Below are positions 9,093-31,086 of a DNA stretch of 64,000 nucleotides, piece by piece. A program made the translations under genes and the position numbers. The stretch is from Gammaproteobacteria bacterium (GTDB taxonomy: Bacteria; Pseudomonadota; Gammaproteobacteria; Steroidobacterales; Steroidobacteraceae). The stretch lies in contig PLAH01000184.1 in the NCBI GenBank assembly GCA_003134045.1, positions 1 through 64,000 on the forward strand. Reading direction: 5' to 3'. The stretch's first letter is position 1; each line of letters starts with the position of its first letter. Below the pieces are notes generated by a model. It did no database searches, was not told the origin of the DNA, and saw only the letters and a list, made by a program, of their open reading frames with translations.

Positions 9093-9352
9093 ACGGCATC
9101 GACGTGCACAGCGCCGCGCCGGGCCGCGCCCCGGCCAATCGAGCGCCGGCCGAGCGAGGTCCCGCCAGCGGCGGCCCCGGCGATCGGCCCACCGCGCGGC
9201 TCGCGGCCAGCGACGCGGCGGCGGGCGCCCCCGCCGTCCATGGCCGGCCGCTCAACCGGCGGGCCCGTCATCTGGCGTTCGCGCTGATGTCGGTGGCCTT
9301 GGCATTCTATTTCGGATTCATCGCCATCACGGTTTACCGCAGCCATCACTGA
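9089..9352 (+). CDS. Small single-helix cox-cluster membrane protein
   Basis: 87 residues that start at an ATGA overlap with coxA and end in an ATGA overlap with ctaG. The track shows it only as the end of a longer shadow ORF. The first 50 residues are Pro/Ala/Gly/Arg-rich and probably disordered; the C-terminal 30 form one hydrophobic helix, [23 protein letters not shown] short membrane protein at this position in proteobacterial cox operons is usually annotated as a small cytochrome oxidase assembly protein; I infer the same here. The disordered N-terminal extension is unusual. Confidence 0.7.
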
Positions 9353-9900
9353 TGGACCTCCGCGAGCGACGCCAGCGGGCCAACCGCAGTTTGATTTTGA
9401 GTTTGCTCGTCATGACCGCCGGCAGCTTCGCCTTCGGTTGGGCACTGGTGCCGCTGTACGACGTTTTCTGCCGGGTGGCCGGCGTGGGCAACGCCGAGGC
9501 CAAGTCGGGACCCTGGTCCGGTACGGAAGCGGTGGATCCGAATCGGGAGATCACGGTCGAATTCGTGGCCGACCCCGCCTCGGTGGGCAGCTATGAGTTT
9601 CGGCCCAAAGTCGCGTCCATGCGGGTGCATCCGGGCAAGCTGTACGACACGCAATTCTTTGCGAAAAACCTGACGCAGCAGCCTTCCGTCGCGCAGGCGG
9701 TGCCGAGCATCTCGCCCAGCGTCGCCGCCAAGTACTTTCACAAGACCCAGTGCTTCTGCTTCAGTCCGCAACGTTTCGGGGCGGGCGAGGGCCGCGACAT
9801 GCCGGTGCGTTTCATCGTCGACCCCGGCTTGCCGGCCAACGTGGACAAGCTGACCCTGGCCTATACCTTCTTCGATACGACTCAATCCGCAGCACGTTGA
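9352..9900 (+). CDS. ctaG: Cytochrome c oxidase assembly protein CtaG (Cox11)
   Basis: Copper chaperone that delivers Cu to the CuB site of subunit I. 182 residues from the ATG at 9352, which overlaps the preceding stop. One N-terminal membrane anchor ([27 protein letters not shown]) is followed by an immunoglobulin-like periplasmic domain with the copper motif QCFCF. The track start at 8968 lies in coxA and is not real. coxC follows after 65 bases. Confidence 0.95.
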
Positions 9901-9965
9901 GCCTCAAACGGCTAAACTAATTCACTTTTCCCGACCCTATATTTATCGACTCTGGGATTTCAATC

Positions 9966-10853
9966 ATGGCGCAAGCGCACGCTCCGGAAGCAGACAAGTA
10001 CTACGTTCCCCACAGCAGCCCGTGGCCGATCTACGGATCGGTATCGCTGTTCGTGCTCATGTTGGGAGCCGCCTCCACGCTCAACAACTGGCTGCCGGCG
10101 TGGGCGCTTCTTCCCGGCTTTTTGATGCTGGTTCTGCTGTTCATCTTCTGGTTCGGCACCGTCATCGGCGAGAACGAGCACGGCATGTACAACATGGCGG
10201 TCGACCGTTCGTTCCGCATGGGCATGATGTGGTTCATCTTCTCCGAGGTCATGTTCTTCGCCGCGTTCTTCGGCGCTCTCTTCTACGCGCGCGAACTCGC
10301 GGTGCCCTGGTTGTCGGGCCACGGCGTCAAGGTGTTCAACAACCTGCTGCTGTGGAAGGATTACGCCGGCTCGTGGCCCACCAACGGGCCGAGGGCGCTG
10401 GGTCCGCGTGCCGACGGCACGTTCGAAACGGTCTCTGCCGTCGGTCTGCCGGCCATCAACACCGCGATCCTGCTCAGCAGCAGCGTCACCGTGACCATCG
10501 CGCACCATGCGCTCATCGCCGGCCACCGCACGCGTTTGAAAATCTTTCTGGCGCTCACGTTCCTGCTGGGCTTCACCTTCGTGTTCCTGCAGGCGAAGGA
10601 ATACCACGAGGCGTATACCGAGCTCGGGCTGCAATTGAGCACGGGCATTTACGGCTCCACGTTCTTCATGCTGACCGGCTTCCACGGTTTTCACGTGACC
10701 TTGGGCGCCATCATGCTGACGGTGATCTGGTTCCGCGTGATGAAGGGTCAGCTCACCCCGCAGCGCCACTTCGCCTTCGAAGCCGTGGCCTGGTACTGGC
10801 ACTTCGTGGACGTGGTGTGGCTGGGCCTGTTCATCTTCGTCTACTGGCTCTAG
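9966..10853 (+). CDS. coxC: Cytochrome c oxidase subunit III
   Basis: Seven-helix core subunit III of the oxidase. 295 residues with HGFHVTLGAIML and the C-terminal FEAVAWYWHFVDVVWLGLF typical of the family. The ATG at 9966 is used. It is the last plus-strand structural gene before a convergent DUF2909 gene; a large imperfect stem-loop lies between them. Confidence 0.97.
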   Translation: MAQAHAPEADKYYVPHSSPWPIYGSVSLFVLMLGAASTLNNWLPAWALLPGFLMLVLLFIFWFGTVIGENEHGMYNMAVDRSFRMGMMWFIFSEVMFFAAFFGALFYARELAVPWLSGHGVKVFNNLLLWKDYAGSWPTNGPRALGPRADGTFETVSAVGLPAINTAILLSSSVTVTIAHHALIAGHRTRLKIFLALTFLLGFTFVFLQAKEYHEAYTELGLQLSTGIYGSTFFMLTGFHGFHVTLGAIMLTVIWFRVMKGQLTPQRHFAFEAVAWYWHFVDVVWLGLFIFVYWL

Positions 10854-10896
10854 CGTCCCGGCACCGTCATGTTGACCGGTTCGAACCCTGGCCAGT

Positions 10897-10957
10897 AAGG
10901 TCGACGCACTTCACGGTGACTGTGTTCTTTTTCGTTGCCGTGAAGTGTCTTGACCTT
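10897..10957. repeat. Large imperfect inverted repeat between convergent genes
   Basis: Arms AAGGTCGACGCACTTCACGG (10897-10916) and CCGTGAAGTGTCTTGACCTT (10938-10957) pair at about 17 of 20 positions around a 21-base loop; an outer GACCGG/CCGGTC pair can extend the stem. It lies between convergent coxC and the DUF2909 gene. There is no proper T-tract after the stem in either direction, so a bidirectional terminator or an mRNA-stabilising structure is possible but unproven. Confidence 0.5.
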
Positions 10958-10977
10958 GCCGGTCGATGCCCTACGGC

Positions 10978-11187
10978 TCAGCGCAGTTGCTGCGGCTGGA
11001 TCCAGCCCTGGGTGTACGCCACGAGCAGCAGAACGAACAAAAATACCGACAGGCCGATGCGCCACGCCAGCGCCTTGACCATCTTGCTGCTGTCGCCCGG
11101 CTTGCTGCTCGACAAGTGGAACAAGGCTTTGCCCAAGCTGATGAGAATCAGCACCAGGATCACGATAACGAGATATTTGAATTCCAC
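10978..11187 (-). CDS. DUF2909 twin-helix membrane protein
   Basis: 69 residues read from a GTG at 11187; the track shows it only as the tail of a much longer antisense ORF. Two hydrophobic helices (LVIVILVLILISLGKALF and IGLSVFLFVLLLVAYTQGW) are linked by the polar loop SSSKPGDSSKMVKALAWR. This matches DUF2909, a family commonly encoded between coxC and surf1. Function unknown; position suggests a link to oxidase assembly. It is the only minus-strand gene in the cox cluster. Confidence 0.75.
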   Translation of the reverse strand: MEFKYLVIVILVLILISLGKALFHLSSSKPGDSSKMVKALAWRIGLSVFLFVLLLVAYTQGWIQPQQLR

Positions 11188-11226
11188 GGCCGTCCTGTTT
11201 TTGACGGGGGGTAGTATATCGCCCCG

Positions 11227-11967
11227 ATGAAACTGGGTTCCCGCATCTTCGCACCGCGACTTTTCACGACTTCTCTGGCCGTGGTGATGCTGGTCGTGCT
11301 GGTGTCCCTGGGACGCTGGCAGCTGCAGCGCGCGGACCAGAAGCGAGCCTTGTACGACGCCTTCGACAAGGGCGCCGATGCGACCCTGGCAGTCGACCGG
11401 CGGACGTTGGCGTTGCCACGGTATCAGCACGTGGAAGCGCAGGGCTCGTACGATGCATCGCGGCAGATCTTGATCGACAACATGACCGATATGAATGGCC
11501 ACGCCGGATATTTCGTGATAACCCCCTTCGCCTTGAGGAGCGGCGGCTGGCTGCTCGTGAATCGCGGCTGGGTGCCGGTGGGCGGGAGCCGCGCCGAATT
11601 GCCCCTGGTGGACGTGAGTGGCGCGCCGCGAAGCATTCGAGGGCGCGCCGATCGTCTGCCGACGCCGGGCATCCAATTGGGATCCCGGGCGGTGCTCGCG
11701 CCGCCGTATCCCATCGTCGCGAATTTTCCGAGCCATGGCGAGATCGAACGGCTGCTGCCCGACGCCTCCTGGGCCCGGGCCGCGGACCTCGTGCTGCTGG
11801 ACGCCGACCAGCCCGACGGCTATGTCCGCCAATGGCAGCCGCCGGGATTCCCGCCGCTGCGCAACGTGGCCTACGCCGTGCAGTGGTTCGGTCTGGCGCT
11901 GGCGCTGGTGGTCATCTATCTCGTCACCAATCTGCGGCGCGCACCCGAACCTAAGGCCACCGTATGA
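11227..11967 (+). CDS. surf1: SURF1-family oxidase assembly protein
   Basis: Membrane protein that helps insert heme a into subunit I. 246 residues with an N-terminal helix followed by LGRWQLQRADQKRALYDAF, the conserved NRGWVPVG segment and a C-terminal helix (VQWFGLALALVVIYLVTNL), the classic two-helix SURF1 layout. The stop overlaps the next start by four bases. Confidence 0.93.
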   Translation: MKLGSRIFAPRLFTTSLAVVMLVVLVSLGRWQLQRADQKRALYDAFDKGADATLAVDRRTLALPRYQHVEAQGSYDASRQILIDNMTDMNGHAGYFVITPFALRSGGWLLVNRGWVPVGGSRAELPLVDVSGAPRSIRGRADRLPTPGIQLGSRAVLAPPYPIVANFPSHGEIERLLPDASWARAADLVLLDADQPDGYVRQWQPPGFPPLRNVAYAVQWFGLALALVVIYLVTNLRRAPEPKATV

Positions 11968-28405: not shown

Positions 28406-28795
28406 ATGCCATATGTCGATATCGTGACTGCGCTCGCACTTATCCAATTCATCGTTTTCGGCTACCAGGTCGGCGCCGCCCGCGTGAAATACGGGGTCAA
28501 GGCGCCGGCAATCACGGGTAACGAGATCTTCGAGCGGCATTTCCGCGTTCAACAAAATACATTGGAACAGTTGATCGTGCTGGTGCCCGGATTGTATCTG
28601 TTCAGCCGGTACTTCGACCCCCGATGGGCCGCGGGACTCGGCGTCGTGTATCTGATCGGCCGGCAAATCTACGCCGCCACCTACGTCAGGAATCCCGCCA
28701 CGCGCAGCTTGGGGTATGGGCTCACATTCTTGCCCATGGTGGTGCTGGTGGCGGGCGCCGCGTTCGGAGCAATTCGGCAATTATTCTGGCATTAG
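28406..28795 (+). CDS. MAPEG family membrane protein
   Basis: 129 residues, four hydrophobic helices. GNEIFERHFRVQQNTLEQLIVLVPGLYLFSRYF carries the RxxxNxxE pattern of MAPEG glutathione-dependent enzymes, and IGRQIYAATYVRNPATRSLGY is the second conserved segment. Start at the ATG at 28406 with AAGGAA upstream; the track start at 28304 is antisense to the SRPBCC gene. A role in glutathione-dependent detoxification is the usual inference. Convergent with and overlapping the TonB receptor stop by 4 bases. Confidence 0.88.
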   Translation: MPYVDIVTALALIQFIVFGYQVGAARVKYGVKAPAITGNEIFERHFRVQQNTLEQLIVLVPGLYLFSRYFDPRWAAGLGVVYLIGRQIYAATYVRNPATRSLGYGLTFLPMVVLVAGAAFGAIRQLFWH

Positions 28796-30900
28796 CGGCC
28801 TTTTCGACCGATCTGATAATCAACGGTGATCCCGATCTGGCGAGGATCGCCGCGATCCAAGAACGGCTGATTGGGATAATTAGGCGGGATGAGTCCAAAG
28901 TAGAAGCCGTTTTGGGCGTAGTTTGCGTCAAAGACATTGTGCACCCATAGGCTCGTCGTCCACGGGCCGCGCTGATATCCGATCCGGATGTTTTCCAGGT
29001 TGTAGGCGCTCGAGGTCTGCGCATCGCTGGTGTAGTAATAGAAGCTATCCATCGCCGAGGCATCGAGACGCGCAAACCAACCGGCCGGATGGTGATATTC
29101 CACGGCCGCCGACAGCTTGTAACCAGGCGCGAACGGCTGCGCACGCCCGTCCAGATCCAAGCCTGCAAACAATCCGCTCGCGCCGAGATACCGCGTGCGC
29201 AGCAGCGAGGCGCTGCCCGAGATCTGCCAATAGCTGCCCAGGCGATAGGCAGCTTCGATTTCCAGCCCGTAGTTTTCACCGTTGCTTGCGTTCTGCGTGT
29301 AGAACACATAGTCCAACGGATTGTTCTGCTGCAACTGCTCCGACAGGTAAACTTGCATGTTTTGCCGGCGCATGTAGAAGATGTCCGTCTGCAGATCCAA
29401 GGGGCCGCCGGCGCGCGAATACTTCAATCCCGTCTCGAGGCTCCATAACGATTCGGGCCCGAAGCTCCGCTGTTCCGCTAAAATCTGCGATCCGATGTTG
29501 AAGCCGCCACCCTTGTAGCCGCGGGCCAACGTCACATACACATGCTCTCCCTCACCCGTATTTCTTTCCCAGGAAAGATTGCCGCCGACCATGTGATTGG
29601 TCTGCCGTGGAAACGGAGTCTGCGCATCGGCGCTATCGGCATAATGCGCTTCGCGCTGCTCGACGCGCAGGCCGCCGGTGAGCGTCGTGCGCGGGCCGAG
29701 ATCCGCGTCCAGCGAACCGTACAGCGCCACATTGGTCGCGGTATACCGGCTGGTCAGACCGCTGCTACCCGCGCCGTCGTACTGGTCGTCGTACATGTAG
29801 AGCAGGTTGTCGGACTCCGTCAGACGCAACGCATACACACCCGCGAGCCACCGAACGCGGCCGAAAAGGGCCCTCGACGGGTCCCCGATCAGCCGCAGGT
29901 CCTCGGCAAGCGTCCGACGGGTTCGATCATCGCTTTGGAAGAAGTCGTAGGGCGCATACGGTCCCCACAAGGCATCGTTACCCCAATCGCCATCGAACGA
30001 ATACGTGATTTTGGAACTCGCGGCGCTCGTGACACTGCGCAATTCCCCAATTCCCAGCGATTCGGTCACGCGCAGTGCAGCGCCGTTCGACAGCTGCGCG
30101 TCGCGGCCGGGCTGATTTGAGTACGTGGTGCGCGTATTGTAGATCGACCAGGCATCGTAGCCGTTGTCGATATTCACATGCATCAACGTGAGATCCGCCG
30201 ACAGCGCATCCGTCACCTGCCAATGCACCTTGCCACGCAGCGTTCCCTCGTCGTAGCCATTGGTTGAGTTCTGATCGAGGTACGCGTTGTGGCGAAATCC
30301 GTCGCTCAAATATTGTTGCGCCACCACACGCCAGCCGGCAGAGCCGGCGGCCATCCCATCGCCGACGGCAAGCCCCACGGCCCGAGTATCGTAAGTCGCA
30401 CCCGTGACCTCGCTTTTCAATTCGAACTCGGTACCGGGGTCGGCAGTCCGGACGCTGATCAAGCCCGCCAGCGCATTCGCGCCATAGGCGGTGCCCTGCG
30501 GTCCGCGCAGCACCTCGATCTGCTGCGTGTCGAACAAGGTCGCCGGCATGCCGACGCCGGAAAAATCGATGTCGTCGATCAGGAAGCCGACCGAGGGATT
30601 CGGCGCGCCTTGGTATTGTTCCACCTCGCCGATGCCGCGCAGTTGAAAAAAGCGGGGTCGGGAAGTTCCGCTGGTCCAGTTCAAATCCGGAACCAGACCC
30701 AGCACATCCTCGAAATGTTGTACGCCTGCCGCTCGCAGCGTTTCGCCGTCGAGCACGGTTACGCTCTGCGGCGACTCGGCCACGCTGCTCGAGCGCAGCC
30801 CGGCCGTGACCACGATCTCGTCGAGCGAGTCGTCGGCGCCCAGTATCGGCTGTACGACAAGAAAATAGGCCGCAAGCGGCCCCATATAAAAACGATTCAT
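28792..30900 (-). CDS. TonB-dependent outer-membrane receptor, TPP-riboswitch controlled
   Basis: 702 residues: signal peptide (FYMGPLAAYFLVVQPILGA), TonB box DEIVVTA, a plug domain with RFFQLRGIGEVEQYQG and VEVLRGPQGT-type element IEVLRGPQGTAYGANALAG, then a 22-strand barrel with FARLDASAMDSFYYYTSDAQ and WVHNVFDANYAQNGF. The chain ends DYQIGRKGR, so the usual terminal aromatic residue is followed by a short basic tail. A TPP aptamer directly precedes the ATG, so I infer uptake of thiamine or a thiamine precursor across the outer membrane. No inner-membrane thiamine permease or thi gene is adjacent. Confidence 0.9.
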   Translation of the reverse strand: MNRFYMGPLAAYFLVVQPILGADDSLDEIVVTAGLRSSSVAESPQSVTVLDGETLRAAGVQHFEDVLGLVPDLNWTSGTSRPRFFQLRGIGEVEQYQGAPNPSVGFLIDDIDFSGVGMPATLFDTQQIEVLRGPQGTAYGANALAGLISVRTADPGTEFELKSEVTGATYDTRAVGLAVGDGMAAGSAGWRVVAQQYLSDGFRHNAYLDQNSTNGYDEGTLRGKVHWQVTDALSADLTLMHVNIDNGYDAWSIYNTRTTYSNQPGRDAQLSNGAALRVTESLGIGELRSVTSAASSKITYSFDGDWGNDALWGPYAPYDFFQSDDRTRRTLAEDLRLIGDPSRALFGRVRWLAGVYALRLTESDNLLYMYDDQYDGAGSSGLTSRYTATNVALYGSLDADLGPRTTLTGGLRVEQREAHYADSADAQTPFPRQTNHMVGGNLSWERNTGEGEHVYVTLARGYKGGGFNIGSQILAEQRSFGPESLWSLETGLKYSRAGGPLDLQTDIFYMRRQNMQVYLSEQLQQNNPLDYVFYTQNASNGENYGLEIEAAYRLGSYWQISGSASLLRTRYLGASGLFAGLDLDGRAQPFAPGYKLSAAVEYHHPAGWFARLDASAMDSFYYYTSDAQTSSAYNLENIRIGYQRGPWTTSLWVHNVFDANYAQNGFYFGLIPPNYPNQPFLDRGDPRQIGITVDYQIGRKGR

Positions 30901-30993
30901 ACCTGCTCCCTACGCCGGTACTAACCGGATCAGGTTCAACGGGTTCGTCGGTTCGCCGACGTCTCAGGTCTCGCAAGACCACCCCAAGGCTTA
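30901..30993 (-). promoter_or_regulatory. TPP riboswitch (THI element)
   Basis: Read on the minus strand: GGGGTGGTC, then CTGAGA (30962-30967), a variable hairpin (GTCGGCGAACCGAC), AACCCG, GAACCTGATC (30928-30937), then CCGGTTAGTACCGGCGTAGGGA. These are the conserved core segments of the TPP aptamer in the right order. The 3' edge, GGGAGCAGG, is purine-rich and touches the ATG of the TonB receptor, so the ribosome site is inside the closing stem: ligand-dependent block of translation is the expected mechanism. A possible promoter (TTGCAC, 18 bases, AATATT) precedes it. Confidence 0.92.
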
Positions 30994-31063
30994 AGAATGT
31001 CGAATATTCGGCTAACTGCGCAGCGAGTGCAACAGCTAATTATTCCATCGGCGGTATTTTCCG

Positions 31064-31079
31064 GCCCGGCTTTCCGGGC
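31064..31079 (-). terminator. GC hairpin after the PBP7-like gene
   Basis: GCCCGG-AAAG-CCGGGC lies 8 bases downstream of the peptidase stop. The stem is perfect but it is not followed by a T-tract, so factor-independent termination is doubtful. It separates the cell-wall genes from the riboswitch. Confidence 0.35.
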
Positions 31080-31086
31080 GCGGCCA

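Follow-up and report, generated by a model that had tools for sequence, protein, structure and literature searches.

A thiamine pyrophosphate riboswitch and a TonB-dependent receptor as a predicted outer-membrane route for thiamine in a Steroidobacteraceae-like lineage

Why would a TonB-dependent receptor stand alone behind a riboswitch for thiamine pyrophosphate (TPP)? We addressed this question in a Gammaproteobacteria bacterium of the Steroidobacteraceae (GenBank assembly GCA_003134045.1), where a 64,000-nucleotide (nt) stretch of contig PLAH01000184.1, hereafter the window, carries a TPP aptamer followed by a single receptor gene. The source is a metagenome-assembled genome (MAG) of 5.5 Mb, 96.8% complete and 6.3% contaminated. 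Gene presence and absence were determined by family searches over this genome and 59 relatives (60 genomes; same-genus genomes, n = 23), and the surroundings of the receptor were compared across 80 homologous loci. The gene content and gene order found in this way make it very probable that this bacterium no longer synthesises thiamine and scavenges it through a two-unit regulon, of which the locus provides the outer-membrane part.

TPP aptamer and TonB-dependent receptor

Using cmscan on the whole window, we obtained a single Rfam match, the TPP riboswitch aptamer or THI element (RF00059), at 30996–30888 on the reverse strand. With 74.7 bits (E = 7e-13) against a cut-off of 54.3 bits, it covers model positions 1–105 of 105 with no truncation. 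The initial annotation had described a complete aptamer here and suggested a covariance-model search; the score bears it out, and the boundaries it gave were right to within about 3 nt. An aptamer pattern lies upstream of the receptor in 76 of the 80 homologous loci, and each of the 15 loci checked again by covariance model scored above the cut-off. Because the aptamer is conserved upstream of orthologous receptors, a chance match is excluded.

The single receptor placed behind the aptamer by the same annotation is likewise present, as an open reading frame of 702 amino acids (aa) at 30900–28792 on the reverse strand. Its plug (PF07715, 57 bits) and barrel (PF00593, 70 bits) domains both score above their cut-offs, which makes it a TonB-dependent receptor, and the protein begins with a signal-peptide-like start and a TonB-box-like DEIVVTA. 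AlphaFold predicted a TonB-dependent transporter fold (predicted local distance difference test, 88.7; predicted template modelling score, 0.89), for which the best PDB match found by Foldseek is the yersiniabactin receptor FyuA (4epa, 21% identity). This modelled FyuA-like fold settles the class of the receptor and not its substrate. Siderophore, heme and B12 receptor names were considered and rejected, as the NCBIfam models all scored far under their cut-offs.

Over their full length, the closest orthologues from the same genus share 77–83% identity with the receptor, and the closest named homologue comes from a bog MAG (83%). Several homologues are labelled Steroidobacteraceae, and many Gammaproteobacteria only. 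Among the many TonB receptors of the source genome we found no close paralogue, the best match reaching 32% identity over 230 aa.

Thiamine genes in relatives and in the source genome

The pair of TPP riboswitch and receptor is present in all 23 same-genus genomes and in 49 of the 60 genomes overall. Outside the genus, a single TPP riboswitch precedes one operon of receptor, pnuC and kinase genes, usually with a ykoF-like gene after the receptor. Across the homologous loci, pnuC lies downstream of the receptor in 57 of 80, most of the remaining 23 being same-genus loci, loci cut by a contig end or loci from Latescibacterota. The source genome contains exactly two TPP riboswitches, the second of which (G000:C93, 18003–17879, 65.8 bits) controls a reverse-strand unit (L171, about 9103–11300 in reverse-strand coordinates) encoding a YkoF-like protein, a PnuC-family transporter, a ThiK-like kinase and a 2Fe-2S ferredoxin. 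The transporter (PF04973, 159 bits) joins the PnuC domain with TPP riboswitch control and so qualifies as PnuT. A second TPP unit with pnuC was found in 18 of the 23 same-genus genomes. Judged by gene order, the window's genus has split the one-piece receptor/pnuC/kinase operon, and the receptor stands alone because of this split. The notion of the receptor as a lone oddity was rejected on the operon context of its relatives.

Five same-genus genomes (G001, G002, G005, G007 and G011) carry the TPP–receptor pair but lack another TPP riboswitch; pnuC lies elsewhere in four of them, and G005 gave no PnuC match. The conserved ferredoxin gene is the last of the second unit, and its connection to thiamine is not evident.

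Homologues from Latescibacterota (L097, L098, L100, L101 and L110) are 36–38% identical to the receptor and are followed by a thiamine pyrophosphokinase (TPK) gene, confirmed by PF04263 and PF04265 in two loci and recognised from clear sequence similarity to those in the other three. The covariance model detected a TPP riboswitch in 4 of 4 loci tested among these five. TPK here takes the place after the receptor that pnuC and the ThiK-like kinase gene occupy elsewhere. Conserved linkage, together with the absence of a close paralogue, indicates that the receptor belongs to an orthologous, dedicated group. It is under TPP riboswitch control and is linked to pnuT and thiamine kinase genes, through the operons of its relatives and the second TPP unit of its own genome, which are the features of omr1/OMthi-type receptors; this likeness is drawn from riboswitch control and gene linkage.

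Family searches of the source genome gave no match for thiC, thiG, thiE or TPK and nothing above the cut-off for thiD, whereas thiL matched strongly. In nearly all of the genus, too, thiE and thiG have no match and thiD none above the cut-off, and it is only because the genus repeats them that these absences are strong. The genome retains ten strong and one weak match to TPP-enzyme pyrimidine-binding domains, showing that the cell needs TPP. With TPP needed and the genes for its synthesis absent, thiamine import is most likely obligatory, and the source organism most likely lives as an obligate thiamine scavenger.

The initial annotation had noted that no thiamine biosynthetic gene lies near the receptor. 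This holds: the co-directional gene upstream encodes a D-Ala-D-Ala endopeptidase and the convergent gene downstream a MAPEG protein, both unrelated to thiamine. That thiamine genes are missing here is unsurprising, since this genus has divided the operon and its member studied here has no thiC or thiG at all. The only same-genus genome with thiC and thiG is G018 (L195), and the rest of the family adds one, G026 (L194); in both, these genes form a biosynthetic cluster of their own under TPP control, beside the scavenging genes, and thiamine synthesis was possibly regained.

Co-occurrence points in the same direction, with pnuC found in 48 of 49 genomes that have the TPP–receptor pair versus 1 of 11 without it, and thiC in 2 of 49 versus 6 of 11; these statistics ignore phylogeny, which is one of several points that weigh against a thiamine-scavenging regulon. 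The YkoF-like protein falls below the gathering cut-off of its family (PF01910, 21.1 bits versus 24.9; E = 3e-4). The APH-fold kinase scores 91.3 bits with the ThiK model TIGR02721, for which the cut-off is 299.45, and we call it 'ThiK-like' only for this reason. Its best NCBIfam match is GntI of the guanitoxin pathway (117 bits, cut-off 357), with ThiK ranking second, and naming the kinase by its best match would mislead. The status of the genome as a MAG with 6.3% contamination limits gene-absence calls. The leader RNA folded alone has a free-energy minimum that is not unusual (z = −0.55), with no switch visible. Finally, a scan of the 90-nt gap between the aptamer and the co-directional endopeptidase gene upstream (30997..31086, reverse strand) revealed no sigma-70-like promoter above chance, and the receptor unit may be co-transcribed with that gene.

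Predicted substrate and switch design

In the model that we infer, which predicts the substrate, the kinase specificity and the direction and mechanism of the switch, low TPP would leave the aptamer loose, allowing ribosomes to reach a Shine-Dalgarno sequence in its 3′ strand and the receptor to be made. The receptor would capture thiamine at the cell surface and import it with TonB energy, and the PnuC-family (PnuT) carrier encoded by the second TPP unit would move it across the inner membrane. There the ThiK-like kinase would convert thiamine to thiamine monophosphate (TMP) and ThiL would convert TMP to TPP, until high TPP closed P1/P4 and turned receptor translation off. A dedicated outer-membrane thiamine route, as the initial annotation had suggested, is supported by the operons of relatives, in which the receptor is joined by pnuC and a ThiK-like kinase or by TPK, and by the absence of de novo synthesis. 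Of its wording 'thiamine or a precursor', intact thiamine is favoured and the precursor is not, because ThiD, ThiE and ThiG are missing.

We weighed three other substrates. Uptake of thiamine phosphates (TMP or TPP), with ThiL finishing TMP, would explain why ThiL is retained although ThiE is lost, since TMP then needs a source; the ThiK-like kinase in the PnuC operon already accounts for ThiL, and PnuC-type carriers take unphosphorylated substrates, which leaves this option conceivable and unlikely. Periplasmic dephosphorylation could combine phosphate uptake with thiamine import. The receptor might instead import a precursor or degradation product, such as hydroxymethylpyrimidine (HMP), aminomethylpyrimidine (AmMP) or thiazole, with the riboswitch responding to the end product alone. 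Pyrimidine or thiazole vitamers sustain many aquatic auxotrophs, and YkoF proteins are listed as B1/HMP-binding (PMC10881298). We consider this very unlikely, given that thiE and thiG have no match and thiD none above the cut-off, either in the source genome or in almost any other member of the genus (an unrecognised TMP synthase such as YjbQ was not searched for), and that the linked enzymes, whether ThiK/APH-type kinase and ThiL or the TPK of Latescibacterota, all use thiamine, or its phosphate, that is already assembled. Scarcely credible is an iron- or metal-siderophore receptor with an incidental TPP riboswitch: the nearest fold and profile are those of siderophore receptors (FyuA, 4epa; TIGR01783), but siderophore profile scores are all under their curated cut-offs, every TonB-dependent receptor has this fold, and the neighbours in two phyla are thiamine genes, with no iron genes among them.

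Turning to control of the receptor, we found that the start codon adjoins the aptamer itself. The 3′ strand of the aptamer, GGGAGCAGGU (30910–30901), contains GGGAG, a putative Shine-Dalgarno sequence, and the P1 3′ arm AGGU, and is followed by the AUG at 30900–30898 (together 30898..30910, reverse strand). The AUG follows the P1 3′ arm (P1 = GCCU/AGGU) without an intervening base and lies 6 nt after GGGA, placing the locus in the direct translation attenuation class. The duplex of this strand with the 16S tail was calculated at about −8 kcal/mol, and GGGAG/AGGU of the aptamer is the only plausible Shine-Dalgarno sequence for the receptor. Control is most likely 'direct' and translational. TPP aptamers that attenuate translation directly form an established class (Barrick & Breaker 2007, PMC2258182), and we predict the OFF direction because this class behaves so.

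For the majority of the window's family, the distance from GGGA to the start codon is 2–9 nt and there is no separate platform. Where the gap from GGGA to the start is 2–5 nt, the aptamer reads GCGGAGGGA, a perfect GGAGG, in 23 of 25 loci, and where it is 6–11 nt, GCGUAGGGA in 31 of 34, although this association with distance is inflated by the relatedness of the loci. Among direct-class loci, the base before AGGGA thus goes from U to G (giving GGAGG) in step with start-codon distance. Such an association is expected if the aptamer strand does serve as the ribosome binding site. Complementarity within P1 averaged 3.23 across loci versus 2.68 with shuffled partners (highest of 500 shuffles, 2.97), an excess kept moderate by the fact that P1 has the same sequence in most loci.

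The orthologues show two designs, the direct one and a longer leader found in Marinicella and other groups. The Marinicella-type leader carries motifs such as ACCGGAUCUCC...GGAGAGAUCC-AUG and a predicted hairpin that hides the Shine-Dalgarno sequence; ACCGGAUC matches the reverse complement of the aptamer's GAUCCGGU exactly and is plausibly its anti-sequestering partner. That the riboswitch acts by transcription termination, rather than directly on the start of translation, is unlikely. A terminator-like stem was called within the coding region (30882–30867), and an E. coli TPP riboswitch is reported to regulate both translation and the amount of mRNA (PMC11487190). Yet terminator-like sites are at chance level (2 found, 2.5 expected), the AUG follows P1 so closely that there is no room for a platform, and longer-leader relatives have the Shine-Dalgarno-hiding hairpin instead of a terminator.

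Relation to known systems

The kind of system described here is known in each of its parts, namely omr1/OMthi, PnuT and direct TPP attenuation. Thiamine TonB receptors of the omr1 type have been predicted since Rodionov 2002, as cited in PMC2771747, their assignments have been reused (PMC10881298, PMC12442306), and examples are given for Colwellia and Shewanella (PMC7142613); as with these, our substrate prediction follows from a TPP riboswitch and co-localisation with pnuT. A TPP operon including a TonB receptor is also reported in Variovorax (PMC10409787). The initial annotation's remark that such a role is 'rarely proven' is fair, although growth genetics already exist for OMthi (BT2390) of B. 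thetaiotaomicron (Costliow & Degnan 2017, PMC5613172). The OMthi/PnuT-Tnr3 system of that species shares the split arrangement, with a TPP-riboswitch TonB receptor, a TPP-riboswitch pnuT-kinase unit and a duplicated riboswitch. In contrast, our source genome belongs to another phylum, has no biosynthesis genes, relies on ThiK-like and ThiL proteins rather than the pyrophosphokinase Tnr3, and adds the YkoF-like protein. Caldithrix abyssi, a probable thiamine auxotroph, similarly combines a TPP riboswitch, a TonB receptor and TPK at a single locus (the last found here in the Latescibacterota relatives), but its inner-membrane carrier is a sodium symporter, not PnuC (PMC5317091). As in the TPP riboswitches of PMC2258182, the purine-rich, conserved 3′ region of the aptamer replaces the ribosome binding site; here, this is the rule in one gammaproteobacterial family, and GCGU changes to GCGG where the start codon is closest.

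A literature search of incomplete coverage returned no paper that deals with this clade or pairs PnuT with a ThiK-like kinase behind a TPP riboswitch. We regard the lineage-wide auxotrophic clade, the PnuT/ThiK-like pairing and the operon split as new, which is a modest advance. More broadly, it seems somewhat more probable than otherwise that an entire lineage of Gammaproteobacteria (Steroidobacteraceae-like families and their neighbours) consists of obligate thiamine auxotrophs living on a TonB receptor/YkoF-like/PnuT/ThiK-like module. This module would then have split in the window's genus and the aptamer become a complete translational switch, its sequence coevolving with start-codon distance (GCGUAGGGA to GCGGAGGGA). 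A large, mostly uncultured bacterial group probably relies on other organisms for its thiamine, and the receptor, for which the nearest named models are those of siderophore receptors, is tied to vitamin B1. Cultured relatives (Marinicella species) could allow a direct test of an outer-membrane thiamine transporter; among them, Marinicella litoralis carries the operon in one piece (L081). Reporter work could also make use of the TPP riboswitch of the window, which has no platform.

One further riboswitch was observed among the compared loci, an S-adenosylhomocysteine (SAH) element (RF01057, 52 bits; L102, 9969–10046, forward strand) that is cut by the locus end and is unrelated to the thiamine genes.
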